Below, piece by piece: positions 13,083-39,765 of a stretch of 64,000 nucleotides of DNA. Made by a program: the position numbers and the translations under genes. This DNA is from Sphingomonas immobilis. GTDB lineage: Bacteria > Pseudomonadota > Alphaproteobacteria > Sphingomonadales > Sphingomonadaceae. The notes below the pieces were generated by a model that saw only the letters and a program-made list of their open reading frames with translations, did not search any database and was not told the DNA's origin. How positions within the stretch are numbered: the first letter of the stretch is position 1; each line of letters begins with the position of its first letter. The stretch spans positions 1 through 64,000 of the forward strand of contig NZ_JAUQSZ010000003.1 of NCBI RefSeq assembly GCF_030580995.1, in the 5' to 3' direction.

Positions 13083-14510
13083 TCAGGTGCGCATCGCTTG
13101 CTCCGGCCGGACACCCTGCCGGCGTAGCCCAAGCAGCACGTTGCCCTCGGTGGAGAGGTAGTTGTGGGCATAATCGAAGCGCGGCGTGTCGGCGAACAGC
13201 AGGTAGTAGTATTTCATCTGCTCGGACCACCAATAGCCGGGACAGTGATCGGCCTGGCGCTTGGGCCTTGCAGTGACATCGGCAAGATCAGTGTAGCCGA
13301 ACCGCGCCTTGTTCCAGCGCTTCATCGCAAGGAAATGGTCACGACCGATCTCTCGCCAGCGCGGATTGCGGTCAAGCAACCAGAGGGTGAAGGCGGCGTC
13401 GGCAAGCTCCGGGCGAAGCGCGTTGGTCACCTGGGCCGGCTTGGCGGTGGCATAGTCATAGCCCTCGGGCAGCACGCCGAAGCGACCCTGCACCTTCGCC
13501 CAGCTCTCCGTGTAGGCCGCGCCTAGCTTCAACGCCCCGCCCTGCCCCAGCAGTCCGCCGTAGAAGGAGGCGAGTTCGTCTTGCTCGGTCGAGACCACCG
13601 CGCCGGTCTCGAAGTCGACGTCCGCGAACCACAGGCTGCCGTGCTTCCAGACCTGTTGGTGTTTCAGGATCGCGGCGGTGCAGACATCATACATGCGCTT
13701 GCATTCGGCATCGCCGAACAGTTGCCACCCGTCCCAGAGATATTCGAAGAAACTGTCGCAATAGGAGCCGACGGTCGCGCGGCGGTCCCGCCATGCGCCG
13801 GTCAGCACGTCGATCTGCGTCGCCACGAGGTCGAGCTTCGAACGCCGCTCGAAAATGGCGACCGCGGCCTTGCGCGCCGCGCGGCCGTAGCGCGGATCGC
13901 CGGTCAGTTGGCTGAGCATCTCCCATTCGGGAAGATAGGTCGCGATATCGGCGGGGCTGGTGACCGGCTCGCTCGATGCGTGCGTGCGCAGGTTGATCTT
14001 GCGGTACGGCATGCCGGTGGGCGTGTCGAACGCCGGGAGCAGGCGGTCGGCGAGATCGCGCGCCTTTGCGAGCAGCACCGGATCGCCACAAGCGTGGTGC
14101 GCGGAGAGCAAGCCGCCGAGCAGCCGGATCGAGGTCTCGAACACCGAGACCACGCCATCGACGTCGAAATCGAGGTTCGCCTTCACCCAGTCGACGCCGT
14201 CTTGGAAACGACTGTCGAGGCCCATCACCCAGAGCGTATCGAGCGCCTCGACGAGGCTCAGTCCGAGGTGACGGTCCTTGAGCGGGAAGCTCGACACGCC
14301 GCCGCTGACCGGCTTGATCTCGTCCTTGCCCCAGGCATGGGCCCTGTAGAGATCCCAGGCCCAGATCATCTCGGCCCTGACCTCCTCCCCAAGCGCAGCC
14401 CAGTCCGTAGCTCTGTCCCGGCGCGCAGCACCCCAGAGTGGTCCGCCTGCCATGAGACTACCCGTAGCCGCCGCTGTACCGACCAAGAGCCTACGACGAT
14501 CGCTGCGCAT
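13083..14510 (-). CDS. Tat-exported GH47 family alpha-mannosidase-like protein
   Basis: A 475-residue protein with an N-terminal twin-arginine-type signal (RSDRRRLLVG, then a hydrophobic stretch). The mature part shows GH47 hallmarks: WAWDLYRAHAWGKDEIKP, VEALDTLWVMGL, FETSIRLLGGLLSAH, LPEWEMLSQLTGDPRY, CDSFFEYLWDGW, and near the C-terminus YLSTEGNVLL with the Thr-Glu pair used for calcium binding. GH47 enzymes trim alpha-1,2-linked mannose and are mostly eukaryotic; bacterial members are few and periplasmic. Start chosen at MRSDRRR (14510) to fit the signal. Confidence 0.85.
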   Translation of the reverse strand: MRSDRRRLLVGTAAATGSLMAGGPLWGAARRDRATDWAALGEEVRAEMIWAWDLYRAHAWGKDEIKPVSGGVSSFPLKDRHLGLSLVEALDTLWVMGLDSRFQDGVDWVKANLDFDVDGVVSVFETSIRLLGGLLSAHHACGDPVLLAKARDLADRLLPAFDTPTGMPYRKINLRTHASSEPVTSPADIATYLPEWEMLSQLTGDPRYGRAARKAAVAIFERRSKLDLVATQIDVLTGAWRDRRATVGSYCDSFFEYLWDGWQLFGDAECKRMYDVCTAAILKHQQVWKHGSLWFADVDFETGAVVSTEQDELASFYGGLLGQGGALKLGAAYTESWAKVQGRFGVLPEGYDYATAKPAQVTNALRPELADAAFTLWLLDRNPRWREIGRDHFLAMKRWNKARFGYTDLADVTARPKRQADHCPGYWWSEQMKYYYLLFADTPRFDYAHNYLSTEGNVLLGLRRQGVRPEQAMRT

Positions 14511-14576
14511 ATCCTGCGTCTCCTTCACCCCCACCATGCGCCGAGACCGAGGCGATGCAAGATCGAAGGCGGGCCG

Positions 14577-28051: not shown

Positions 28052-28160
28052 GCAGAATGCTGGCGCCGGAATGATTGCTGCTCGCTTCGCGCGCGCTTGA
28101 AATCCCAAGCGTCCACAACCAGATCCCTCTCATCGTCAACAGTGGAAAGGAGGTGGTCAG

Positions 28161-28235
28161 ATGTCTCATTGTCATATGCCGATCGCGGCAGGAACTTCGA
28201 GCTTAGCCTCCACCGCGGGGGTCCAGTTCGCCTAA
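28161..28235 (+). CDS. candidate 24-codon small ORF
   Basis: ATG at 28161 is preceded by an unusually strong ribosome site (AAAGGAGGTGGTCAG) and encodes MSHCHMPIAAGTSS then LASTAGVQFA before a TAA. A perfect hairpin follows 25 bases later. The combination of strong SD, short frame and terminator suggests a real micropeptide or leader RNA in the traF-traH gap. Nothing is known of it. Confidence 0.45.
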   Translation: MSHCHMPIAAGTSSLASTAGVQFA

Positions 28236-28260
28236 GCCGTTCCGCGTTCGCTGGACAATG

Positions 28261-28292
28261 GAAAGGCCGTCCCGGCAGCGGGACGGCCTTTC
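28261..28292 (+). terminator. strong stem-loop, probable terminator
   Basis: Perfect 14-base-pair stem (GAAAGGCCGTCCCG with its complement) around a GCAG tetraloop. The right arm ends in TTTC rather than a long T-run. It would end transcription of the small ORF or of the upstream tra genes. Confidence 0.65.
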
Positions 28293-28362
28293 ACATTCTG
28301 GCGCTTAGGAACTTGGGCGCAGACGTGTCGCACGGAACGCCGAAGAATACTGGTGTCGGCAA

Positions 28363-28566
28363 TCAGGCGGGCGCGACACCATCCGCGTTGACGATATTGT
28401 CGCCGACCAACGTGCCAATCACCCGGACACGCTTTTCGACATGATCGATCGGCACGCGGTGCAACTCGAGCTCGAAGCGTCCGCCGGCATCGCGCCGCAG
28501 AAAGAACGCTCCACCATCCCGAATCAGCGTGCCGGTTTCGTTGATGCGGGTTCCAATGCTGGCCAT
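28363..28566 (-). CDS. DUF5818-like small protein
   Basis: A 67-residue all-beta protein (IGTRINETGTLIRDGGAFFL, then GGRFELELH and KRVRVIGTLVG) matching the short DUF5818-type barrel common in sphingomonads. The frame extends a little upstream (MPLNLKRGRGYHLA), but the start at 28566 fits the family length. Antisense to the tra operon. Function unknown. Confidence 0.65.
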   Translation of the reverse strand: MASIGTRINETGTLIRDGGAFFLRRDAGGRFELELHRVPIDHVEKRVRVIGTLVGDNIVNADGVAPA

Positions 28567-28642
28567 GGCCAGATGGTATCCCCTGCCCCGCTTCAGGTTC
28601 AAGGGCATGTTCGCAAACTTCTGTAAATAGCACCGCGCCCGC

Positions 28643-29644
28643 TTACCAGGACGGCAACACCGGCGGTGGTCGTTGCGCGCTCCATGCTGCGAAAAAGGGC
28701 GCAAGTTCGCCCGGCAATTGGGCCTCGAACCCTGCATCGAGCGGGTATTGTGGCATCGCTTCAGCGACCGCGTCGAGCAGCAGCATGCCCTGTTTGTGAT
28801 CCTTGGGCCGCTTCTGCGGGTTTCGCTTCTTCTGCTCGGCCATCCACAGCTTCTGGAGCGCGAACCAGCGCGGGTCTGGCGCGATGATGCGCGCGGGCGA
28901 GCCGTCGCGGCAGACGACAACATGACTGACCGGCGTGCCCAGTAACAACCATTCCTGCTCCGGAAGCGGCACAGGGCGTGGTCGATCGGCCCGCGCCATC
29001 GTGCCAGCCCGCGAGGGCGCGACGAGGATCTCGACTTCGTAGGCTTTTGCGTTGCGGGCCTGGAAGGTGCGCTCGGTGTTGACGGTGAATGTCGGATCGA
29101 CCGTCTTAAGGAGATCCCAGACACGCTGATCTTCCGCTTCCCGCTCGGCTGCCCAGGCAAGATCGAGGTCTTCGGTCTCGTCCGGAAGCTGGCGGATGAA
29201 GCCGTTCGCCTCGATCGCATAGGCTGTTGTCGCGTTCGTGCCGATGACCAGGAGATCGGACCCAAGAAGCGACCGTCGATCGGCTTCGCGCAGGATTGGC
29301 CCGGCCGCGCTGGCAAGCATCGGGAGGCGGAGCGCCCGGTAGAGCCGCGCACTTTCGGCGAGTGTGCCGGCAGCCCCGTCCCGTCGCAGTTTCGCGTCGG
29401 CCTTGGCGGCACGATAGGCGCCGAAGCGCGCTTCCTGCGCCGCAGACCACGGCCCAAGGCTCTTTCCGTTGCCGCCGCGATCATGGATTTCGTAGAGATA
29501 GGCTTTACCGGCAACCTCCTTGCGCCGGAGGTCATAGGGCATTTGGTGCAGCGTCTGTTCGGCAGACATCCAGGCGTCGTAGCGCTGGTGCAGATTGACA
29601 AGCAGCCTCGCCTGTTCTTCCGTGAAGGGTGTGACCGTCCGCAT
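28643..29644 (-). CDS. GSU2403-type nucleotidyltransferase-fold protein
   Basis: A protein of about 333 residues. LLVIGTNATTAYAIEANGFI followed by TEDLDLAWA fits the NTase core G(S/T)xxD..D layout, as in GSU2403-like proteins; EILVAPSRAG and a C-terminal HKQGMLLLDAVAE block also fit. The family is uncharacterised and often sits in mobile or defence contexts. The first ATG pair (29644/29647) sits in a palindrome, suggesting autoregulation; ATG 29692 is an alternative. It is antisense within the tra operon. Confidence 0.7.
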   Translation of the reverse strand: MRTVTPFTEEQARLLVNLHQRYDAWMSAEQTLHQMPYDLRRKEVAGKAYLYEIHDRGGNGKSLGPWSAAQEARFGAYRAAKADAKLRRDGAAGTLAESARLYRALRLPMLASAAGPILREADRRSLLGSDLLVIGTNATTAYAIEANGFIRQLPDETEDLDLAWAAEREAEDQRVWDLLKTVDPTFTVNTERTFQARNAKAYEVEILVAPSRAGTMARADRPRPVPLPEQEWLLLGTPVSHVVVCRDGSPARIIAPDPRWFALQKLWMAEQKKRNPQKRPKDHKQGMLLLDAVAEAMPQYPLDAGFEAQLPGELAPFFAAWSAQRPPPVLPSW

Positions 29645-29645
29645 C

Positions 29646-29686
29646 ATTATCCCACATAGCACGGAAGGATAAGAACGTGGGATAAT
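29646..29686. promoter_or_regulatory. inverted repeat, probable operator of the nucleotidyltransferase gene
   Basis: ATTATCCCAC (29646-29655) and GTGGGATAAT (29677-29686) form a perfect 10-base inverted repeat with a 21-base centre. A third half-site, GTGGGATAA, lies at 29757-29765. The repeat covers the start of the nucleotidyltransferase gene, so a bound regulator would repress it. Confidence 0.55.
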
Positions 29687-29793
29687 TACCATCTGAGCGT
29701 TAAAACGCGTTATCGCTTTACGCCTACTGTCCCGCAAAGGGGACGTTCTTCACTTTGTGGGATAAATGGCGATAGAGAGGCGCGCTGCCACAT

Positions 29794-30110
29794 CTACTGC
29801 AGCGCATCCCGTCGCTCGATGTCCCATCGTTGCGCGATCTCGGCGGCAGCGGCCCGAACATAAGACGCGCCCTGCGGCACGAGTTGCGCAAGCGTCCATT
29901 GGACACCGGGGCCCACATCGGGCGCCGCAAGAATGCGGATGCTGGGCTGCGTAATGTCACCCGCCCGCCGCCACGTCGCTAGGGTCGAGCGCCCGCACGC
30001 GCAGCTCGCCGACCGGCTCGAGCATCGAATTCCTGACGATCTCCGAACTGTGTGCAGTCCCCCCGACGAGCGGTCGCCGCTTCAAATTGGCTTGAAGTGC
30101 AGAGGGCGTC
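29794..30110 (-). pseudogene. hypothetical gene, apparently frameshifted
   Basis: Two minus frames join logically. The upstream part ends SMLEPVGELRVRALDPSD before a stop. One base out of frame, the downstream part reads DITQPSIRILAAPDVGPGVQ, then AEIAQRWDIERR to a TAG at 29794. Deleting one G in a GGGCGGG run near 29959 would make one continuous protein. Neither frame has a clear start. It could be the partner of the nucleotidyltransferase, but this is speculative. Confidence 0.35.
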
Positions 30111-30199
30111 CCTTGCCCCAAGACGCGACGCCGGTGCCCTAGCGGCACGTTATTGCCCACCGCATTGTCCAGCCACGGACGGTGTCGCATCCCGCCGGC

Positions 30200-30814
30200 A
30201 TGAGCAGTCCCTTCATGTCCGTCTGGCCGGTCGTGCGCGCCGTGCCCCTGACTATCCTTTCCGGCATCGGTGCGACCGCGCTTGTGATGCCGAACAGCGC
30301 GGCGGCGCAAGCCGATCGCACGGCGGCGGCCCGTGCGGCAGTCCATCCGGTCCAGAACGAGAGCGCCCTGAAGCTGTGGCTCGGCCGCGTTCCGCTGACG
30401 CACGCCTTCCCGCCCGATTTCGCCGACACACTGAAGGGTCAGGCGCCGCTCTATCTCATCGAGATGACAACGGCGCCGGGCTGTCTCGCCTGCGCCGATC
30501 TCTGGGCAGCTTTGGGCGCCCTGCGCGTGCGCTACGGATGGCAGGTCCGCACGATCCCCGGCGAGGAGGCGATGGTGCGGTCAGGACGGCTCGGCTTGCC
30601 CTGGGTCGGACACCCGGTCGCCTGGGTCCGGCCTGTGGCCGACGAGACGCGGCTGATCCCGATCGCGGTGGGCACGGATCACCCCCTCAATCTCGCGCGC
30701 AACCTCTATCTTGCCGCCAAGATGCTGACCGGCGTGCGGCCTGCGGTCGCCGTACGCGCCATGTCGAAATTCACTGGAATCGTCAGCCCGGTCCGCGAGG
30801 GCGTTTCCCGATGA
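30200..30814 (+). CDS. TrbB-like thioredoxin-fold conjugation protein
   Basis: A protein of about 204 residues with an export signal (VVRAVPLTILSGIGATALVM). The mature part has YLIEMTTAPGCLACADLWA with a CxxC near residue 94 and GLPWVGHPVAW with a cis-Pro-like turn. Likely a periplasmic disulfide isomerase-type factor (TrbB/DsbC-like) serving cysteine-rich TraN, TraU and TraH. An in-frame GTG lies at 30182. Its stop overlaps the traH start (ATGA). Confidence 0.7.
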   Translation: MSSPFMSVWPVVRAVPLTILSGIGATALVMPNSAAAQADRTAAARAAVHPVQNESALKLWLGRVPLTHAFPPDFADTLKGQAPLYLIEMTTAPGCLACADLWAALGALRVRYGWQVRTIPGEEAMVRSGRLGLPWVGHPVAWVRPVADETRLIPIAVGTDHPLNLARNLYLAAKMLTGVRPAVAVRAMSKFTGIVSPVREGVSR

Positions 30815-32292
30815 GCCCCGCGATCAGAGGTAAGGCCTTGGGCATCTGGCCTTTGTCCAAAGCGTTGCGGCCGCCATCCGCGCTCGTGAAGTTCGCAGCC
30901 TGGCTAGTCTTGATGGTGGCCGTATTCGGCGCCTCGCCCGCGAGCGCCCAAGGCTGGGCCGAGAGCTGGTTCGACAATGTCACCTACACGAGCCCCGGCA
31001 GTTTCGAGGATCAGACCCGCGGCTATCTGACCGCCGGCGGCATGTCGGGGCGCGTCGACGTCCACAATGACTATCTGATGTCGCTCTCACTCCCCAAGGT
31101 GAAGGCGGGCTGCGGCGGCATCGACATGTTTCTGGGCGGCATGTCGTTCCTCGATCCCGAATATCTCGTCCAGAAGCTCGAGAGCATCCTGCAGGCAGCC
31201 CCCGCGGTCGCGTTCCAGTATCTCCTTGAGACGCTCGACGAGAAGATGGGCAACATCATCTCGAAGATGGAGGCCGCGACCAACTTCCTCAACTCGATCC
31301 AGGTCAACGACTGCCGCATGGCGAACCGGCTCGTCCAGATCGCCAAGGGCGATGATAATATGTCCGGGATTATCGAGGAGATGACCGGCTATCGCTCTAT
31401 CAAGCAGGGGTTCGCCAAGAGCTTCCAGCAGAGCCGTGAGAAGATCGAGGCCAACAAGAACAATCCAACCGAGGATCTGAAGGACGCACTCAACAATTGC
31501 CCGGCCGAGGTCACCGACATCTTCCGGACCGGCTCCTTGCTGGGCCATGCCGCGGCGCGCGTCGGCGCGGGCGACTGGGCGGGCGTGATGCGCGCGCGGG
31601 TCGGCGACATCTACATGCGCTGGGATCCGACCGACAAGGTGCCGCTCTTCTCGGCGATCCCGGCGTGTCCCAACCAGGATACCGAGAGCGCGCAGGATTT
31701 TCTGACCGGCCGCGTTCAGACCCGCGCGCTCAATGTGCCGAGCTCGCCCGCCGACTGCCGGCAGGACGGCAGCGGCAAGGGCGCGCTGATCCTCGCGCGC
31801 AACCGGATGCAGTCGATCGCGGTCAAGATCCGCACGCGCGCGACGCTGGCGCCGGAGGAGAAGCAGTTCGTCGCCAATGTCCGCACGCTCCCCATCTACC
31901 GCATGCTCGAATGGGGCGTGCGCCAGGGCGTGGTCGACTCGGTGGTCGGCGATACCGACGAACTGGTGGCGCTGACCCTCGCCTATCAGATGCTCAACGA
32001 CCTCACCCGCTCGATCGACTTCGCGGTCAGCAATGCGGAGCGCGGCGCGACGGTCGCGGGAGCCTCAGCGCCCGACAGTCCAAACATGTGTCAGACCAAG
32101 ATCCTGACCAAGGGCCTCGAGCAGCTGCGCGACCTGCGCGACGAGGTGCTGCGCCAGCGCGCGCAGATGCGGCAATCCTATATGGCCGCGCTGAACGCGG
32201 CGAACCTGTCAGCGTCTTATGCGGGCCTTGTGCGCCAGCGCGACCGCGATGCGCGCGATGCCGTCGGGACAGCCTCAACCCGAACCCCTTGA
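30811..32292 (+). CDS. traH: conjugal transfer protein TraH
   Basis: A 493-residue exported protein. Signal peptide (FAAWLVLMVAVFGASPASAQ), then DQTRGYLTAGGMSGRVD, LPKVKAGCGGIDMFLGG and FQYLLETLDEKMGNIISKM, the TraH hallmarks. C-terminal helices follow. TraH is needed for pilus biogenesis at the outer membrane. It ends 16 bases from the 3' end of hipA, which is convergent. Confidence 0.92.
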   Translation: MSPAIRGKALGIWPLSKALRPPSALVKFAAWLVLMVAVFGASPASAQGWAESWFDNVTYTSPGSFEDQTRGYLTAGGMSGRVDVHNDYLMSLSLPKVKAGCGGIDMFLGGMSFLDPEYLVQKLESILQAAPAVAFQYLLETLDEKMGNIISKMEAATNFLNSIQVNDCRMANRLVQIAKGDDNMSGIIEEMTGYRSIKQGFAKSFQQSREKIEANKNNPTEDLKDALNNCPAEVTDIFRTGSLLGHAAARVGAGDWAGVMRARVGDIYMRWDPTDKVPLFSAIPACPNQDTESAQDFLTGRVQTRALNVPSSPADCRQDGSGKGALILARNRMQSIAVKIRTRATLAPEEKQFVANVRTLPIYRMLEWGVRQGVVDSVVGDTDELVALTLAYQMLNDLTRSIDFAVSNAERGATVAGASAPDSPNMCQTKILTKGLEQLRDLRDEVLRQRAQMRQSYMAALNAANLSASYAGLVRQRDRDARDAVGTASTRTP

Positions 32293-32308: not shown

Positions 32309-33640
32309 TCACTCAAGCTCGGCAAAGGCCGTTTCCAGGCGGTCCAGACGACCCGCGATCGCGGCTTTCACAGTGGAATGGACGTCGTCCTTGAAGTCGT
32401 CGGGCATCGCGCCCCTCGCGAGGTCGGCGGCGGTGGCGGCCTTTTCGCGAACTTCCGTCACTACCTTCCTGATGACGGTCGGCCCCATGCCAGCGATCTT
32501 CGCGGTCTGCACGAAATGCCGCCCCAACACCTCTTCCATGCGGTAGTGGCGATTCTTGCCGGCCGACATGGCCAGACGGAAACGCTTGCGATCCAGCTGT
32601 CCGCGATCGACGGTCCCCTGCACCGTCAGCACGTCGTAAAAGGGCGTGAGCCTGAAACCCCCACCGGGGCGCAAAAACAGGCTGAAGTTCTTGGCATGCC
32701 CATCCGTCGCTCCGATCAGCCAAAAGATGATCTGGCTGGCGAGGAATGCAGCCTGGTCGGCGGTTGAATCATCGCTACCGCCGAGCAAGCGGATGATAGC
32801 GGCAGCCGTCGGGCCGCCCTCGTTCTGGTATTTCTGAGATGACGGTATGCCGAGAGCCTGACAGCAATCCTCCTGGGGAAGGCGCAGGAGCCGGCCATCC
32901 GCGTGCCATTGCCGGTCGAAGCGTTCGACGACCAGCACGCGGCGCTTGCCAAACGTCGCGATCTCGGTGCGGGCGACGGGCAGCCCGAACGCGCTCATCA
33001 GGGCAAGGCAGTAATGCTCGTTGTCGACGCTTGCGGTCATGTCGATCGTACCGGTTGAGGTGGGAATTTCTCCGAGCTGAGGCTTCAGGATGTGCGTGGT
33101 CGGCGTTGTGCCGGTCGGCCGCACCCATGTGTCGTTGTGGCGCAGCAGCGCTGTCTTCTCCTGGGCTCCCGCGATCGAGATGCGGAAGTCCTGGTCCGGA
33201 TTGATGCCCAGCGGCGCGCCTTTGAGGCCCGCAAGGATTTTCTCGATATCGTCGTCATTCACCGTGCCGCCCTGGACGGCATCACCGGCATTGAAGGCCT
33301 CGCCCTCTGGCAGGAACTGCATCGCCCCGACGCAGTCCCGGCCGATGCGCGCGAGCAGGCTGTAAGGATCTGTTCCGTCGGCGCCCGTGCGCTCGGCGAC
33401 ACGACGGCGGATATCGCCGCTGTCGGGCAGGAGATTGTCGAACACGGCCAGAACCGGCGCACCGCGATAGGCAGCCGCGCGAAGCGGCAGCGACAGCGAT
33501 GCGGCAAAAGCGTGCTGCCAGTCGAGCCAACTCTGGTCGTATTGGAACATTATGGCGCCGCTCGACTCTTTGGAGAGCCGGCCGACATGGCGACTGTTGA
33601 TCAGCACGTTCAGGGGCGCGTGAGTCTTCTGCCGCGACAT
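32309..33640 (-). CDS. hipA: HipA-family serine/threonine kinase toxin
   Basis: A 443-residue HipA. It begins with the N-subdomain (LNVLINSRHVGRL, FQYDQSWL). The kinase core has ISIAGAQEKTALLRH, THILKPQL with the ATP-contact Lys, EHYCLALM, RFDRQW, and DGHAKNFSLFL, the catalytic-loop Asp, then LTPFYDVL in the DFD-like position. All key residues appear intact, so it is likely active. HipA kinases phosphorylate tRNA synthetases and arrest growth. Start at MSRQKTH (33640), one base after hipB. Confidence 0.93.
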   Translation of the reverse strand: MSRQKTHAPLNVLINSRHVGRLSKESSGAIMFQYDQSWLDWQHAFAASLSLPLRAAAYRGAPVLAVFDNLLPDSGDIRRRVAERTGADGTDPYSLLARIGRDCVGAMQFLPEGEAFNAGDAVQGGTVNDDDIEKILAGLKGAPLGINPDQDFRISIAGAQEKTALLRHNDTWVRPTGTTPTTHILKPQLGEIPTSTGTIDMTASVDNEHYCLALMSAFGLPVARTEIATFGKRRVLVVERFDRQWHADGRLLRLPQEDCCQALGIPSSQKYQNEGGPTAAAIIRLLGGSDDSTADQAAFLASQIIFWLIGATDGHAKNFSLFLRPGGGFRLTPFYDVLTVQGTVDRGQLDRKRFRLAMSAGKNRHYRMEEVLGRHFVQTAKIAGMGPTVIRKVVTEVREKAATAADLARGAMPDDFKDDVHSTVKAAIAGRLDRLETAFAELE

Positions 33641-33641
33641 A

Positions 33642-33890
33642 TCAGAAGATCTCACCGATATCCGCGCCGCCCTTGTCGCGGGGTCCGATCCGCATATCGA
33701 GATCCAATGCAGCCAGAATGCCGAACAGGGTCTCGAGCTTCGTGCCGAGCTGACCGCCTTCGATACGCGAGATGGTTTTCTGGCCGGTTCCAACCAGGTC
33801 CGCCAGGGCTTGCTGCGTCAGGGCGCGATGCACCCGCGCATTGTGGATGAGGGTGCCGAGCTGTTTCGAGGATCTTGCGAGGTGGGTCAT
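33642..33890 (-). CDS. hipB: HipB-type antitoxin (XRE HTH)
   Basis: An 82-residue protein with a clear XRE helix-turn-helix: LTQQALADLVGTGQKTISRI followed by EGGQLGTKLETLFGILAAL. This is the HipB antitoxin and repressor, binding palindromes upstream of its own gene. Start ATG 33890 is preceded by AAAGG; ATG 33908 is possible but would overlap the first operator. It is the promoter-proximal gene of the hipBA pair. Confidence 0.92.
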   Translation of the reverse strand: MTHLARSSKQLGTLIHNARVHRALTQQALADLVGTGQKTISRIEGGQLGTKLETLFGILAALDLDMRIGPRDKGGADIGEIF

Positions 33891-33911
33891 GGGGATGCCT
33901 TTCAGCATCCA

Positions 33912-34011
33912 TATACCCCGCAGGGAATAAAATTGCAATATACCTTGTGGGGCATATTCGGGAATTATACCCTATAAGGCATAATATCTACTTATGCCCT
34001 ATAGGGTATAA
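33912..34011. promoter_or_regulatory. four-site HipB operator array, 27-bp period
   Basis: Four palindromes related to TTATACCCTATAGGGTATAA occur at 33912-33929, 33938-33957, 33965-33984 and 33992-34011. Their centres (about 33920.5, 33947.5, 33974.5 and 34001.5) are exactly 27 bp apart, and the two sites farthest from hipB are the best palindromes. They lie between hipB and traG in an AT-rich island. HipB normally binds such TATCC/GGATA-type palindromes cooperatively. Confidence 0.85.
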
Positions 34012-34278
34012 CGCTCCAGCTTCGCGCAATCACAGAAGTGTCGTATCGCGAAACTCGACCTCGCCGCCTCAGATCGCGACATTGCGGGACATGTACCGCA
34101 AGGGCGCCGCGAACGGCACTTCAGTGCCCTCACGGTGGCGGGCGCAGTTCCGCTCCGCCAGGCTCCACGGACCATTTTTCGAAAGGATCGAGTTCATGCG
34201 CCCGTCGAGCTGGACGGTGGCCCGGCCGCGTCGTGCGCCTTCGGCGCGCTTGGTCCTGCCGGCAGCGAGAGCCTGACC

Positions 34279-37200
34279 ATGGAGACCAGCTTCCACACCT
34301 ATGATGGCTTCGCCGAGACGGTCGAGGCGTTTCGGCTCGTCTCGATGATCTTCGCTGATCCCCGCTACGAGACGCTCGTGCTGATCATCGCGACGGTCGG
34401 GATCGGACTCGGCGCACTGCTGGCGAGCGTTCGGGGTTCCGGTGCCGGCCTGATGGCGTTCGGGTTCCAGATCCTGGTCGGGATCGGCCTGTTCGTGGGC
34501 CTCGTGAGTGTGACGGGCACGGTCCATGTCTACGACCGGGTCAGGAACGCCTATCAGCCGGTCGGCGGCGTGCCGGTGCTGCTCGTGCTCGTGGCCGGCG
34601 TCACCAATCTGATGGAGCGCGCGCTGGTCGAGACGATCGACGACAACACGCTCGATCCGAATGCCAAGATCGAGTTCGGCGCGGGCGGGCACAGTTTCGA
34701 CCTGTTCCTCAATGCCGTCTCCCCGCGCGGCCCGATGACCGACACGTTTCTCGACGCGACGATCAAGGACTATGTCCGCCAATGCTATCCAGTCGCGCGC
34801 GTGTCGCCGGCCTACGGCGTCGACGACGACAAGCTGTTTCGCACCACCACCGATCTGCCGGCGGCGTTCGCCGCGATGGCCGGCCCCTCGACCTTCTCGA
34901 CCGTCTACACCCAAGGCGACAAGGGCGGCACGACGGTGAGCTGCGAGGAAGCCTGGACGCTGATCAACGAGCGCCTGTCCGACCCCAATCTGTTCGATGC
35001 CTACACGAAGCAGATCTGCGGACAGACCGGGTTCGACACGGCCGTCCCGGCGCAGCTCCAGCGCTGCCGGTCGCAGCTGGGCGACATGGGCCAGATGATG
35101 CTCTCGCGCCCGCTGTCGACCCAGGGCCTGTTGACGCACATCCTGCTCGGCAATGCGGTCGGCGACGTGCTGTTCGAGGATTCTCCGGCAACGGCCGCGC
35201 GGGTGATGGCGAACCGCGCGGTGATCTCGAGTGGGCTCTCGACCATGTCAGCCGCCAACGAGTGGATGCCGACGATCCGCGCGACGGTCTTCGGCATCAT
35301 GCTGTTCATGGTGCCGATCGCGCTGCTGTTCATCCTCACGCCGATCAATCTGCGGGTCGCGAGCTTCGCGCTTGGCCTCTTCGTGTTCGTGGCGCTGTGG
35401 GGCGTGATCGATGCCGGCATTTACCAGCTGTCGCTCGGCCGCGCGATGGGGGTGCTCGGCGAGATGCGGAGTAACGCGCTCGGCGCCAACGCCTGGTTGA
35501 TGGCGCCCTCTGCCGCCATGAAGGCGCTGGCGATCTTCGGCACGTTCCGGACGGCGGCGGCAGGCCTTGCGGGCGCGTTCGTGTTCACGGTGTTCCGCTT
35601 CTCCGGCAACGTATTCTCCTCGCTCACCGGCGGCGCGCTCGGCGCGGTCGGCCAGGCGAGTGCGGCTGCTGCCCCGCTTGCGACATCCGAAGGCTATGCG
35701 AGCGCGCTCGAGGCGCAGGCGTCGGCCGCGGGGACGCGCGCCCGGGCGGGCGCTGCCAGCAGCTTCGGGGATTTCGGGGAGCGGTCGAGTTTCCAGCAGA
35801 CCCGCACCTTTGGGGAGACGGGCACGATCATCGGCGAGGGCTCGGGCCCTCCCGGGGGGACGGCGCTGGCAATGGGCGGGATCGATGGTGCCCGGGCACT
35901 CGGTGGCCTCGCCCCCGCCATGGGCGGCCGCGACCTGTCCGACCCGGCGGTCGCGCGTGCGGTCCAGGCCAATGCTGCAACGGGCGCAATCCACCAGTTC
36001 GCCGAGAAGGACGCGCTCAGAAGCCTTGGCACGACCTATTTCGGCCAGGGCCAGCAGGGCGAGAAAGCGTTCGCCGCCTTCGCCCAGAACATGGTGCAGT
36101 GGCGCGCGTTCGGCGACGAGCGCGCCTACGACATGATGCTCTCGGGCGCGCAGCGCCATTTCGAGCGTAGCGGCTACGATGCCAAGGATGCCGCGCTGAA
36201 GGCGTCAGGCGTGATCGGCGAGGCGCAAAGCAATCCCCTGTTCGCCAAACTCACCGCCAATGCGTTCGACCAGGAGCAGATCCTCACCAACGAGCTGACC
36301 GCCGCGCAGGTCCAGGTCGGCGCGATGGCGGGGCGCCGCGATTTCGCGGGCGCGGATGTAGCCGGCGTCGAGCGCCGCAACGTCGCGACCGAGCAGGCGA
36401 GCCGGAGCGGCACCAACCAGGGCCAGCGCGACGCCGCGCAGATGCTCGGTCTCCCGGTCCAGGAGACGAGCCGCCGCATCGGCTTCATCACCGCGCTCTC
36501 CGGGGAAGCCCGCTCCTCCGCCCTCACCCAGCTCGCCCGCGCGACCGGCCGCAACGAGGCGCAGGTGCTGAAGGCGATGGAGACCTATAGCGCCGCCACC
36601 CAGCTTGGGACGGCGGACGGTGCGACCGCGGAGGCCGCACGCGAGGGCACCACGGTCTACGGACGAAGCAGAGACACGGCGGGCTATGACTTCGCCGAAC
36701 GGGCCGGCAAGCTCGATGCGCAGAAAGAGACCGGGCTCGACGGCACGCGGAGTGCCGCCCGGATCGGCGAACAGCGGCGACAGGCCGACAATGAGGGGTT
36801 CGCGGCGGGCGCAGAGGCGGCGGGCATGTCCACCCGCGAGGCCGCGCGTCTCGACAGCTTCATCCGGACGCTCGGCCAGGCGGCGGGCAACCAGGTCGAC
36901 ATGGCCGAGGGCGGTGCGCAGGGCATTGCGGACCGCGCCAGAAACGACCGCACGACCAGAATCGTCGACAGCGAGCGGCTGTCGCGCATGCAGGCGCTGC
37001 TGCGGGCGAACGGGGTCACGATGACCAAGCGTCAGCTGGCGATGGCACAGAATGGCGACCTGGCGCTTAACGTCAGCCCGCAGGTGGCAAGTCAGCTTCA
37101 CAAGGCCGGTCTTATTAGCGACAGCCAGTACGGCGCGATCGCGCAGGGTGGCCATGCCCGCTTCAGCTTCGCCGCCAACGACCTGTTGGTTTCGAGCAGC

Positions 37201-37929
37201 AGCGATTTCCAGAAATCCGCCAGGGCCGACACCAGCACGCGGTTCGAGGCAGGCAAGCAGGCCGGGCCCGACACGATCGAGCATTTCCTCGGCGGCGGCA
37301 AGGAAGGCCATGCTGCGATGGCGAACTGGCTCAAGGGCGGGTTCGAGATGGACCGCACCGGCCACTGGCGCCTCAAGCCCCAAGTCGCCGATACGCTTCA
37401 GCGCGACGTGCAGGCGGTCATGGCGCAAACGGGTTGGCAGCGCGCGCTCACACGAAGTGAGCAGCATCAGATGACGATCGGCGACGCGGTTAGCGGGCAA
37501 GTATCGGGGGGCGCGTCTGCGACTTCTTCTGCTGACGCGAAAGGGCGTTCCGTTGGCCGAACAAGAGGGAGCGCAAGCTTTGCGCTAAGCGGTTCTAGCT
37601 CGGACGCGGCGGTCAGTTCAACGGCTGCCAACGGCACGATCGACATAGTCAACTACGACGTCCGAAACGCGATCGCCGAAGCTGAGCGGATTGCTTCGCG
37701 GTCGAGCACGCCAGAGCAGGCTTTCAGTGCCGAACTGAGCCGACAAGTACTGGGCGGCAGGGGTCTGCGGAATCGCTATCTCAGGGAAGCGGACGCGGGT
37801 CGCGGCTTAGGTGACTTCTTGGCGCCGTTGTCGTCGCACGAGCAGGAACAAATCCTGAGCACTGGTCGCTTCTCCGGAGATTTGGACAACGGCCAATGGG
37901 ACGGTAACCCGGAGTTCAAAAAGCGGTAG
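34279..37929 (+). CDS. traG: conjugal transfer mating-pair stabilisation protein TraG
   Basis: A 1216-residue protein. N-terminal inner-membrane part (FHTYDGFAETVEAFRLVS, then several membrane helices to about residue 450) and a long Gln/Ala-rich periplasmic or translocated C-terminal part, as in F TraG, which assembles pili, stabilises mating pairs and is the target of entry exclusion. The last roughly 150 codons look less GC-biased than the rest. The 267 bases between the operator array and this start contain no gene I recognise. Confidence 0.88.
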   Translation: METSFHTYDGFAETVEAFRLVSMIFADPRYETLVLIIATVGIGLGALLASVRGSGAGLMAFGFQILVGIGLFVGLVSVTGTVHVYDRVRNAYQPVGGVPVLLVLVAGVTNLMERALVETIDDNTLDPNAKIEFGAGGHSFDLFLNAVSPRGPMTDTFLDATIKDYVRQCYPVARVSPAYGVDDDKLFRTTTDLPAAFAAMAGPSTFSTVYTQGDKGGTTVSCEEAWTLINERLSDPNLFDAYTKQICGQTGFDTAVPAQLQRCRSQLGDMGQMMLSRPLSTQGLLTHILLGNAVGDVLFEDSPATAARVMANRAVISSGLSTMSAANEWMPTIRATVFGIMLFMVPIALLFILTPINLRVASFALGLFVFVALWGVIDAGIYQLSLGRAMGVLGEMRSNALGANAWLMAPSAAMKALAIFGTFRTAAAGLAGAFVFTVFRFSGNVFSSLTGGALGAVGQASAAAAPLATSEGYASALEAQASAAGTRARAGAASSFGDFGERSSFQQTRTFGETGTIIGEGSGPPGGTALAMGGIDGARALGGLAPAMGGRDLSDPAVARAVQANAATGAIHQFAEKDALRSLGTTYFGQGQQGEKAFAAFAQNMVQWRAFGDERAYDMMLSGAQRHFERSGYDAKDAALKASGVIGEAQSNPLFAKLTANAFDQEQILTNELTAAQVQVGAMAGRRDFAGADVAGVERRNVATEQASRSGTNQGQRDAAQMLGLPVQETSRRIGFITALSGEARSSALTQLARATGRNEAQVLKAMETYSAATQLGTADGATAEAAREGTTVYGRSRDTAGYDFAERAGKLDAQKETGLDGTRSAARIGEQRRQADNEGFAAGAEAAGMSTREAARLDSFIRTLGQAAGNQVDMAEGGAQGIADRARNDRTTRIVDSERLSRMQALLRANGVTMTKRQLAMAQNGDLALNVSPQVASQLHKAGLISDSQYGAIAQGGHARFSFAANDLLVSSSSDFQKSARADTSTRFEAGKQAGPDTIEHFLGGGKEGHAAMANWLKGGFEMDRTGHWRLKPQVADTLQRDVQAVMAQTGWQRALTRSEQHQMTIGDAVSGQVSGGASATSSADAKGRSVGRTRGSASFALSGSSSDAAVSSTAANGTIDIVNYDVRNAIAEAERIASRSSTPEQAFSAELSRQVLGGRGLRNRYLREADAGRGLGDFLAPLSSHEQEQILSTGRFSGDLDNGQWDGNPEFKKR

Positions 37930-38582: not shown

Positions 38583-39512
38583 TTATATCGATTTTTTGGA
38601 TAATTCAGACGTAAGCACCGAAATTTGCTCAGTGCAGATCGCGTGAACGACACGCCCGAGTTCCTCCGCGTGAGTCCCCAGCCACGTGAGTTCTTCCAAA
38701 TCGATCCGGTAGTGTTTTGAATACCGAGCCTTCACGTATGCGTCTTTAAGCTTCTCAAATGCCGCACGATCCTTGCGTTTCTCTCTCGGCCAAGCTTCGA
38801 ATAGCCGTCGGTCGAGACGTTCAGCCTGCGTACGAAGAAAAATGAGATTATGAACATGCGGAGTGTAGAAAGTACGGACAAGCAAAACGCAGTGGTAGAG
38901 GCGCTCTACACATTGGTGCAGTTCGAAAGCTGCCTTCTTGTATCGATGCTTTTCGGTGTTCGCCCGAAAATCGTCGAAAAATTCTGCAGCACTGGGAAAC
39001 CACTCCTCGAAATATTCGCGGGCGAGCGCCAATGCCTGTTCCGGTGTTTTCGGCTTCGGCTGGTGTAGCTCGGTATCGTCAGACTGGTAGAGTGCGATAC
39101 CGTCGTTCGCGATATCGATGAAAAAGTAGCGCCCGTGCGCAAGCCCATCGTTCACTTGCTGAAGCGTGTGAACGATGAAATTCACCGGAGTGTGGAGCGC
39201 TTTCGTCACGGCCAATTCGACGTTCAGGCGCTCTTCTGCTCGCGACCAATAATCCAGTCGATCGGTCAGCTCGTCCTGGTTGACGATCACAAGAAGGTCG
39301 AAGTCGGAGCGATAGGCTTTGGAGGTATGCGGCTCATCAACCCAGCCTCCCCGCGCGTAGCTTCCGTAAAGAATGATCTTGAGGATCCGCCCGTTTTTCG
39401 TGTCACCGGTCGCCAGCTTGGTGGCGTCGTGCAATTCCTCGAATAGGATCTGGACGACGCGGTCGAGCTCTCGCTGTTTTGCTGCCGGGAGATGATCAAG
39501 GTCGGTGCGCAT
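38583..39512 (-). CDS. nucleotidyltransferase-HEPN fusion protein
   Basis: A 309-residue protein. The N-terminal MNT-type NTase core shows ILYGSYARGGW and SDFDLLVIV, the GSxxRG...DxD active site. The C-terminal HEPN half contains LLVRTFYTPHVHNL, in which R-x5-H fits the HEPN ribonuclease motif (Rx4-6H). MNT-HEPN pairs are toxin-antitoxin or tRNA-modifying modules in which the NTase adenylylates the HEPN RNase. Here both halves are fused. Start at MRTDLDHL (39512). The 250 bases upstream hold nothing recognisable. Confidence 0.75.
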   Translation of the reverse strand: MRTDLDHLPAAKQRELDRVVQILFEELHDATKLATGDTKNGRILKIILYGSYARGGWVDEPHTSKAYRSDFDLLVIVNQDELTDRLDYWSRAEERLNVELAVTKALHTPVNFIVHTLQQVNDGLAHGRYFFIDIANDGIALYQSDDTELHQPKPKTPEQALALAREYFEEWFPSAAEFFDDFRANTEKHRYKKAAFELHQCVERLYHCVLLVRTFYTPHVHNLIFLRTQAERLDRRLFEAWPREKRKDRAAFEKLKDAYVKARYSKHYRIDLEELTWLGTHAEELGRVVHAICTEQISVLTSELSKKSI

Positions 39513-39765
39513 CAGGATCTTCCTAGCCCACGATTTCGGCTCGTGCCCAGCCCCACTCCGCTTTCCCCCCACCAATGACCGCACCGGACCGCATCAAAGA
39601 GCAGACACGCAAACGCGCTCTCCCTCCCCTTCCTGGCGTCATATGGGCACTGGCGCTCGAAATAGGCTATCCGCGAAAGAGCGGGTCCCGATCGAAGCTA
39701 GCCTGGTTGCAACAACATCGGACAACACCGATCCTGACCTGACGAAGCGGCAGGCAGGCAGATGG

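Follow-up and report, generated by a model that had tools for sequence, protein, structure and literature searches.

A regular 27-bp array of palindromes upstream of hipBA in Sphingomonas immobilis, predicted to serve as a HipB promoter-operator

The hipBA locus and its array

A hipBA locus of Sphingomonas immobilis is described here, found on the minus strand within a stretch of 64,000 nucleotides (contig NZ_JAUQSZ010000003.1, positions 1 to 64,000), which is referred to below as the window. The two genes lie between traH and traG of an F-type conjugation operon, and directly 5' of hipB there are four imperfect palindromes, named O1 to O4 from the hipB side, whose centres follow each other at an exact period of 27 base pairs (bp). 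The features are listed below in the order of the forward strand.

30781..32292, plus strand: traH (F-type conjugation), its stop codon 16 bp from the end of hipA
32309..33640, minus strand: hipA, a 443-amino-acid HipA-family kinase toxin directly behind hipB (domain and profile matches)
33642..33890, minus strand: hipB, an 82-amino-acid Xre-family antitoxin with the recognition-helix stretch GTGQKTIS (domain and profile matches)
33910..33915, minus strand: likely -10 element TATATG, which shares bases with the hipB-side arm of O1, at a 17-bp spacer from the likely -35 element
33911-33930: O1, promoter-proximal operator palindrome, centre 33920.5, ATATACCCCGCAGGGAATAA (sequence and site search)
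33933..33938, minus strand: likely -35 element TTGCAA in the O1-O2 linker, assigned from the alignment of relatives
33938-33957: O2, operator palindrome, centre 33947.5, ATATACCTTGTGGGGCATAT (sequence and site search)
33965-33984: O3, operator palindrome, centre 33974.5, TTATACCCTATAAGGCATAA (sequence and site search)
33992-34011: O4, distal operator palindrome, centre 34001.5, TTATGCCCTATAGGGTATAA (sequence and site search)
34012..34278: the 267-bp interval between O4 and traG
34279..37929, plus strand: traG (F-type conjugation), lacking the signal-peptide-like start that its relatives have

Direct reading of the sequence places the four centres at steps of 27, 27 and 27 bp, with O1 at 20 bp from the hipB ATG (33890, minus strand) and O4 at 267 bp from the traG ATG (34279). 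An earlier note on this DNA, made from the letters alone, had reported four palindromes 27 bp apart directly upstream of hipB and about 270 bp from traG, and this observation is confirmed. The consensus that it gave for the palindromes describes two of them well: when up to 3 mismatches are allowed, it is matched twice in the window, at O3 and O4, and never in 100 shuffles, and inversion of one of these two sites gives a 95% copy of the other. The fit of O1 and O2 is poorer, with 5 and 6 mismatches to that consensus by hand count, both being in register. When nothing but TTAT arms is assumed, a search recovers exactly O1 to O4 in the window's upstream region (L001). In the whole genome (4.13 Mb), the pattern TATACCCN4GGGTATA with at most 2 mismatches is found at 5 places, 4 of which are the array sites, and with at most 3 mismatches at 16 places, as against 17 for the reversed control; this genome-wide pattern search found no second array of the same type.

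The genes behind the array have the hallmarks of their family. There is a gap of 1 nucleotide between hipB and hipA, so that an antitoxin gene of the Xre/helix-turn-helix type stands directly 5' of the toxin gene. HipA harbors the Couple_hipA and HipA_C domains (PF13657, PF07804 and TIGR03071, all above cut-off), and its nearest solved relative is HipA of E. coli (2wiu_A, E 1.7e-102), to which it aligns along residues 13-431. HipB matches PF01381 above cut-off; its best NCBIfam matches, to the Y4mF-family antitoxin TIGR03070 (52.5 bits) and the E. coli HipB equivalog (37.2 bits), both fall below the curated cut-offs, and its weak matches to solved proteins include HipB of E. coli, Shewanella and Legionella. 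In domains and gene order the pair conforms to a HipBA type II toxin-antitoxin system, of which toxicity and neutralisation are predicted properties.

Spacing and half-sites among relatives

Relatives of hipBA were drawn from two sources, namely the best 80 of at least 578 contig matches and 298 genomes of the family, 30 of which, including the window's own, match HipA with an E of at most 1e-40. The resulting 111 loci were reduced to 87 with a hipB hit and at least 200 upstream bases, and then to 79 distinct regions by the removal of near-duplicates, with the window as one of the 79. Within this set, 68 regions with runs of three sites entered the promoter logo and 66 the covariation tables. 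As labelled, the hosts are mostly alphaproteobacteria, with a few Nitrospira/Nitrospirales, Verrucomicrobia, Spartobacteria and Gammaproteobacteria and one Bacillus.

The 27-bp step is a general property of these upstream regions. A site caller based on TTAT arms returns 206 spacings from the 79 regions, of which 177 are exactly 27 bp, 5 are 26 bp and 1 is 28 bp; in shuffled upstream regions the share of 27-bp spacings is 2.0%. Runs of three or more sites, each 27 +/-1 bp from the next, are present in 68 of the 79 real regions and in 2 of 3950 shuffled ones, and these 68 arrays consist of three sites (31 arrays), four sites (34) or five sites (3). Half-site letters and linkers differ from region to region. 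As a control that is free of any assumed letters, a dyad caller that scored offsets 4-10 only, and that missed many sites, placed 32 of 54 spacings at 27 bp, as against 1.2% in shuffles. Raw autocorrelation of the upstream regions also has its top lag at 27 (0.434; mean 0.260, standard deviation 0.037) and its second at 54. Since the spacing is conserved upstream of hipB in relatives, the period is not accidental. A pattern of two sites at 27 bp that makes no use of protein matches finds 5 of 296 genomes of the order, and none with the reversed control; each of the four genomes besides the window's has an adjoining hipB-like gene.

Irregular spacing in related loci was what the earlier note thought would expose the period as accidental, and the relatives do not display it. 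The note also supposed that adjacent dimers could build an unusual nucleoprotein filament. Such a filament would be a prediction, and the word unusual is, by the same comparison, not borne out, the 27-bp ladder being the rule among the relatives examined and four cooperative operators being known in E. coli. On the other side of the balance are 11 of the 79 regions, which lack a run of three sites. They include a rather close relative, L083 (HipA 76%), whose arms differ from TTAT and whose array is visible by eye.

Two loci combine hipB with a 27-bp operator pair without a P0001-like HipA behind hipB. In L151 (G095) the genes that follow hipB resemble AbiEi/AbiEii by eye, and in L155 (G293) the one resemblance to HipA is weak and partial (30%, residues 10-78) and lies at another place in the locus.

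The half-sites also suggest which protein reads the array. The outer TAT/ATA is nearly fixed, and the inner bases depend on the clade, with TATACC, TATACG, TATGCG and TATGATC as the forms encountered. In a blind scan of all HipB columns, the strongest partner of half-site offset 6 is residue 38 (excess 0.87 bit; the next column, 42, has 0.69), and that of both offset 4 (0.76, with residue 38 near at 0.73) and offset 5 (0.41) is residue 36; for offset 3 the same scan shows no clear partner. In counts of loci, offset 6 is A in 12 of 13 cases with K38, G in 24 of 28 with E38, and A in 22 of 22 with A or G at residue 38. At offset 4, W36 goes with T (7/7), R36 with G (42/47), and G, Q, H or Y at residue 36 with C (12/12). 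Between the two residues, Q37 is invariant in all 66 rows. Positions 36, 37 and 38 align with K38, Q39 and A40 of E. coli HipB, residues that we take to lie in its DNA-recognition helix.

Several observations weigh against so direct a reading. Independent switches on the HipA tree are few: the test for residue 38 involves four pairs on starred branches (p 0.125) and those for residue 36 involve three and two such pairs, the independent switches being concordant or tied and none opposed. By z-score, column 35 comes slightly above column 36 for offset 4. E. coli departs from the pattern in having A at the aligned place (38) and yet C at offset 6, and there are exceptions among the relatives too, since L009 (K38) has G and four loci combine E38 with C. 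Because the half-site letters covary with HipB residues 36 and 38, it is nevertheless very likely that HipB reads the sites of the array, as predicted from sequence. The identification of the palindromes as HipB operators in the earlier note gains support from this covariation as well as from the family matches of HipB and HipA.

A likely promoter within the array and its predicted regulation

In the aligned arrays a TTG is found in the O1-O2 linker in 63 of 68 cases, and the O2-O3 linker of the same 68 arrays has no comparable consensus. On account of this conserved TTG, the hipBA promoter likely lies inside the array, with TTGCAA-17-TATATG as the form that the alignment points to; its -10 part is not separable from the operator arm by conservation alone. 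It counts against this promoter that a consensus scan found none here (0 found, 0.6 expected), TTGCAA/TATATG being a weak match. Given this placement, the candidate hipBA promoter is overlain by several palindromic operators, four in number.

We therefore put forward, with a probability of roughly 0.87, that the array is the hipBA promoter-operator and that it is predicted to be filled by HipB dimers together, so as to repress hipBA. The -35 and -10 elements would be covered by HipB on O1 and O2, with O3 and O4 contributing cooperativity. All four sites would probably be occupied cooperatively, with HipA as a partner as in E. coli. At 27 bp, or about 2.6 helical turns, neighbouring dimers would sit on nearly opposite faces of the DNA and every second dimer on nearly the same face. 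A fall in HipB, through protease loss or through loss of the element that carries the genes, would open the array, allow hipBA to be transcribed and refill the antitoxin. The likely role of the pair would be to retain the conjugative element that carries it within the cell, to slow growth through the HipA kinase, or both.

Regulation of this kind has precedents. Excerpts of PMC3376134 describe cooperative binding of E. coli HipB to four operators, with autorepression. As here, E. coli hipBA has four palindromic operators 5' of hipB with TAT...ATA outer arms. A reading of the genome places their centres at 28, 39 and 28 bp, and so in two pairs, in contrast to the steps of 27, 27 and 27 bp in the window; the half-site is TATCC (TATCCN8GGATA) in E. 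coli and TATACC here, so that the layout of the E. coli type (TATCCN8GGATA, 28/39/28) is not what is found in the window. The O1-O2 linker of E. coli holds a TATAAT box (by eye), whereas here it holds the likely -35 element. In Caulobacter, the hipBA1 and hipBA2 promoters carry series of inverted repeats, according to excerpts of PMC7029023. For Legionella HipBST, excerpts of PMC10653801 report several evenly spaced HipB operators 5' of the operon; as described there, these differ from the present array in comprising three sites with 53-bp gaps, in their motif and in serving a split toxin. A plasmid-borne hipBA of Klebsiella michiganensis, which like the pair described here belongs to a mobile element, has been shown to stabilise its plasmid, as stated in excerpts of PMC11487325. 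It is very likely that the array is a regular variant of this known HipB autoregulation. In the literature searched, the coverage of which is partial, no statement of a 27-bp rule was found, and this is weak evidence of novelty.

In some relatives the two arms of an operator are unlike. By a cut between symmetric and asymmetric arrays that was chosen after the data were seen, the arms differ from each other in 18 of 66 arrays, as in TTATCGGAT and TTATGCGCC. In these 18, like arms tend to face each other across the linker (mean 0.545 vs 0.405), a value as high as which is reached in 1 of 3000 random flips; 9 reach a facing-arm identity of at least 0.6 and 9 stay under 0.6, including four at 0.25 and one at 0.08. 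The alternation is clear in L024, L027, L039, L077 and L080. One reading is that facing arms mark the operators that HipA links in pairs, as the 39-bp gap may do in E. coli.

In seven loci (L024, L027, L039, L064, L075, L077 and L080), the orientation of two unlike arms changes from one operator to the next, so that a 54-bp composite repeat overlies the 27-bp ladder. Alternating arm orientation as a general rule was rejected, 326 of 1000 random flips being as high in the 48 symmetric arrays, the window's included.

A wider proposal can be offered tentatively, as something that we would judge possible but somewhat improbable. It holds that there are two HipBA architectures, the 28/39/28 pairs of E. 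coli and a mostly alphaproteobacterial 27-bp ladder of 3-5 operators that HipA-HipB could close into an unbroken fibre; that residues 36 and 38 constitute a two-letter half-site code; and that some loci mark pairs by the alternating, asymmetric half-sites of the 54-bp composite repeat. Were this true, the spacing rule and the two-residue code would make it possible to find HipB operators from sequence, and likewise to predict HipB-operator crosstalk between several hipBA copies. A ladder with an exact 27-bp step would also be a clean natural system in which to tell pairwise bridging of neighbouring operators by HipA from bridging in a chain.

The conjugation operon around hipBA

Both traH and traG are on the plus strand, and hipBA lies antisense between them. 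TraG is present in 19 of the 298 family genomes, the window's included. Of the other loci, 19 retain an intact traG 5' end and were used to compare the traH-traG junction, some of them being near-identical (for example L125/L126/L131 and L117/L118); three further TraG loci (L130, L133 and L134), whose match lacks the traG 5' end, were excluded. In all 19 relatives traG directly adjoins traH on the same strand and hipB is absent from the junction, and in this respect hipBA is not a standard part of the F-type conjugation operon. Homology to other hipBA loci starts at 32316 or later, and the farthest-reaching matches (L003, L036, L009 and L014) stop at 34009-34010, which is the edge of O4, the remaining loci ending earlier. 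Because the homology stops at O4, the array belongs with the genes, and hipBA is, as judged from these alignments, a cassette that was inserted backwards between traH and traG with its array included. It follows that the nearness of the array to traG is probably a by-product of where the cassette landed.

The gene on the far side of the array appears to have been altered. In 19 of 19 relatives, a hydrophobic, signal-peptide-like stretch is encoded just before the point of the window's traG ATG, with a top 12-residue hydropathy of 1.57-2.59. At the same place the three plus-strand frames of the window give -0.3, 1.24 and 0.5, and none is signal-peptide-like. The insertion, or some later change, seems to have removed the start of traG, and traG may not work at all. 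A promoter scan near traG found none, the scan being a weak one that misses the likely hipBA promoter too. The interval 34012-34278 has no match in plasmids and is not conserved, being met only as scattered fragments of 24-73 bp, with E from 3.5e-5 to 7.9e-4, in 19 of the 298 genomes besides the window's. A reading frame for 26 amino acids (34196-34276) with a ribosome-site-like AAAGGA, seen by eye, stops 2 bp before traG at 34279.

Among the loci of the hipBA relatives, only L010 (Sphingopyxis H053) also has traG, and there hipBA is some 4.3 kb downstream of it, after a series of other toxin-antitoxin-like genes. In the nearest hipBA relatives (L002, L003 and L036), integrase-like genes are seen by eye within about 3 kb. 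This context would fit a cargo or stabilisation role for hipBA. The sole RPA replication gene found belongs to contig C16 instead of C15, so that C15 may be either a plasmid or integrated.

Among the alternatives to simple autoregulation, the one that fares best, though still improbable, is that an array coated by HipB and HipA acts as a roadblock that halts read-through from traH to traG, so that hipBA throttles traG, and strong tra transcription strips HipB in turn. Any read-through from traH would have to cross the array, a barrier could be formed by four dimers at such close spacing, and a plus-strand promoter for traG was not detected by the weak scan. Yet the placement is unique, none of the 19 relatives having such an array before traG; traG here lacks the signal-peptide-like start and is perhaps non-working; and arrays of the same plan precede hipB at loci where neither traH nor traG is found, the flanks available being as short as about 1.5 kb or less and as long as 8 kb.

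Less probable still is that HipB controls a promoter of traG located at the array or past it, which would couple persistence to transfer as the earlier note suggested; in its favour is the short distance, of only 267 bp, between O4 and the traG ATG. The adjacency of traH and traG in 19 of 19 relatives makes it probable that traG has no promoter of its own there, the weak scan detects none, and the interval is not conserved. With the antisense insertion, the arrangement in L010 and the missing start of traG also taken into account, the proposed coupling finds no support. Equally remote is the notion that the array is the target of another regulator, or is a repeat with a role in structure or recombination, with HipB binding elsewhere or not at all, since although HipB binding to the array is a prediction and integrase-like genes occur near hipBA in L002, L003 and L036, the half-site letters shift with HipB residues 36 and 38, and the array accompanies hipB even without a P0001-like HipA behind it (L151 and L155).

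Autoregulation of hipBA by HipB, within an inserted cassette, is the reading that we prefer, and the locus, if so understood, counsels caution in deducing function from neighbourhood. A cassette lying backwards in a tra operon mimics transfer control, and it is more likely to be cargo, possibly at the cost of traG.

Further features of the window lie outside the hipBA cassette. A second antisense insertion in the tra operon occupies 28052-30181 and contains a gene for an NTP_transf_8 nucleotidyltransferase (28643-29737, minus strand). It sits between traF and an open reading frame at 30182-30814 that has no Pfam match; in both relatives looked at (L160 and L161), traF and the counterpart of this frame are adjacent. 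Downstream of traG there is a gene for HEPN and nucleotidyltransferase domains (38583-39584), 68% identical to one at 6572-7495 of L010, where it is located among toxin-antitoxin-like genes and hipBA. Finally, a gene at 13083-14537 on the minus strand encodes a member of glycosyl hydrolase family 47 (E 4.9e-106), a family known mainly from eukaryotes.
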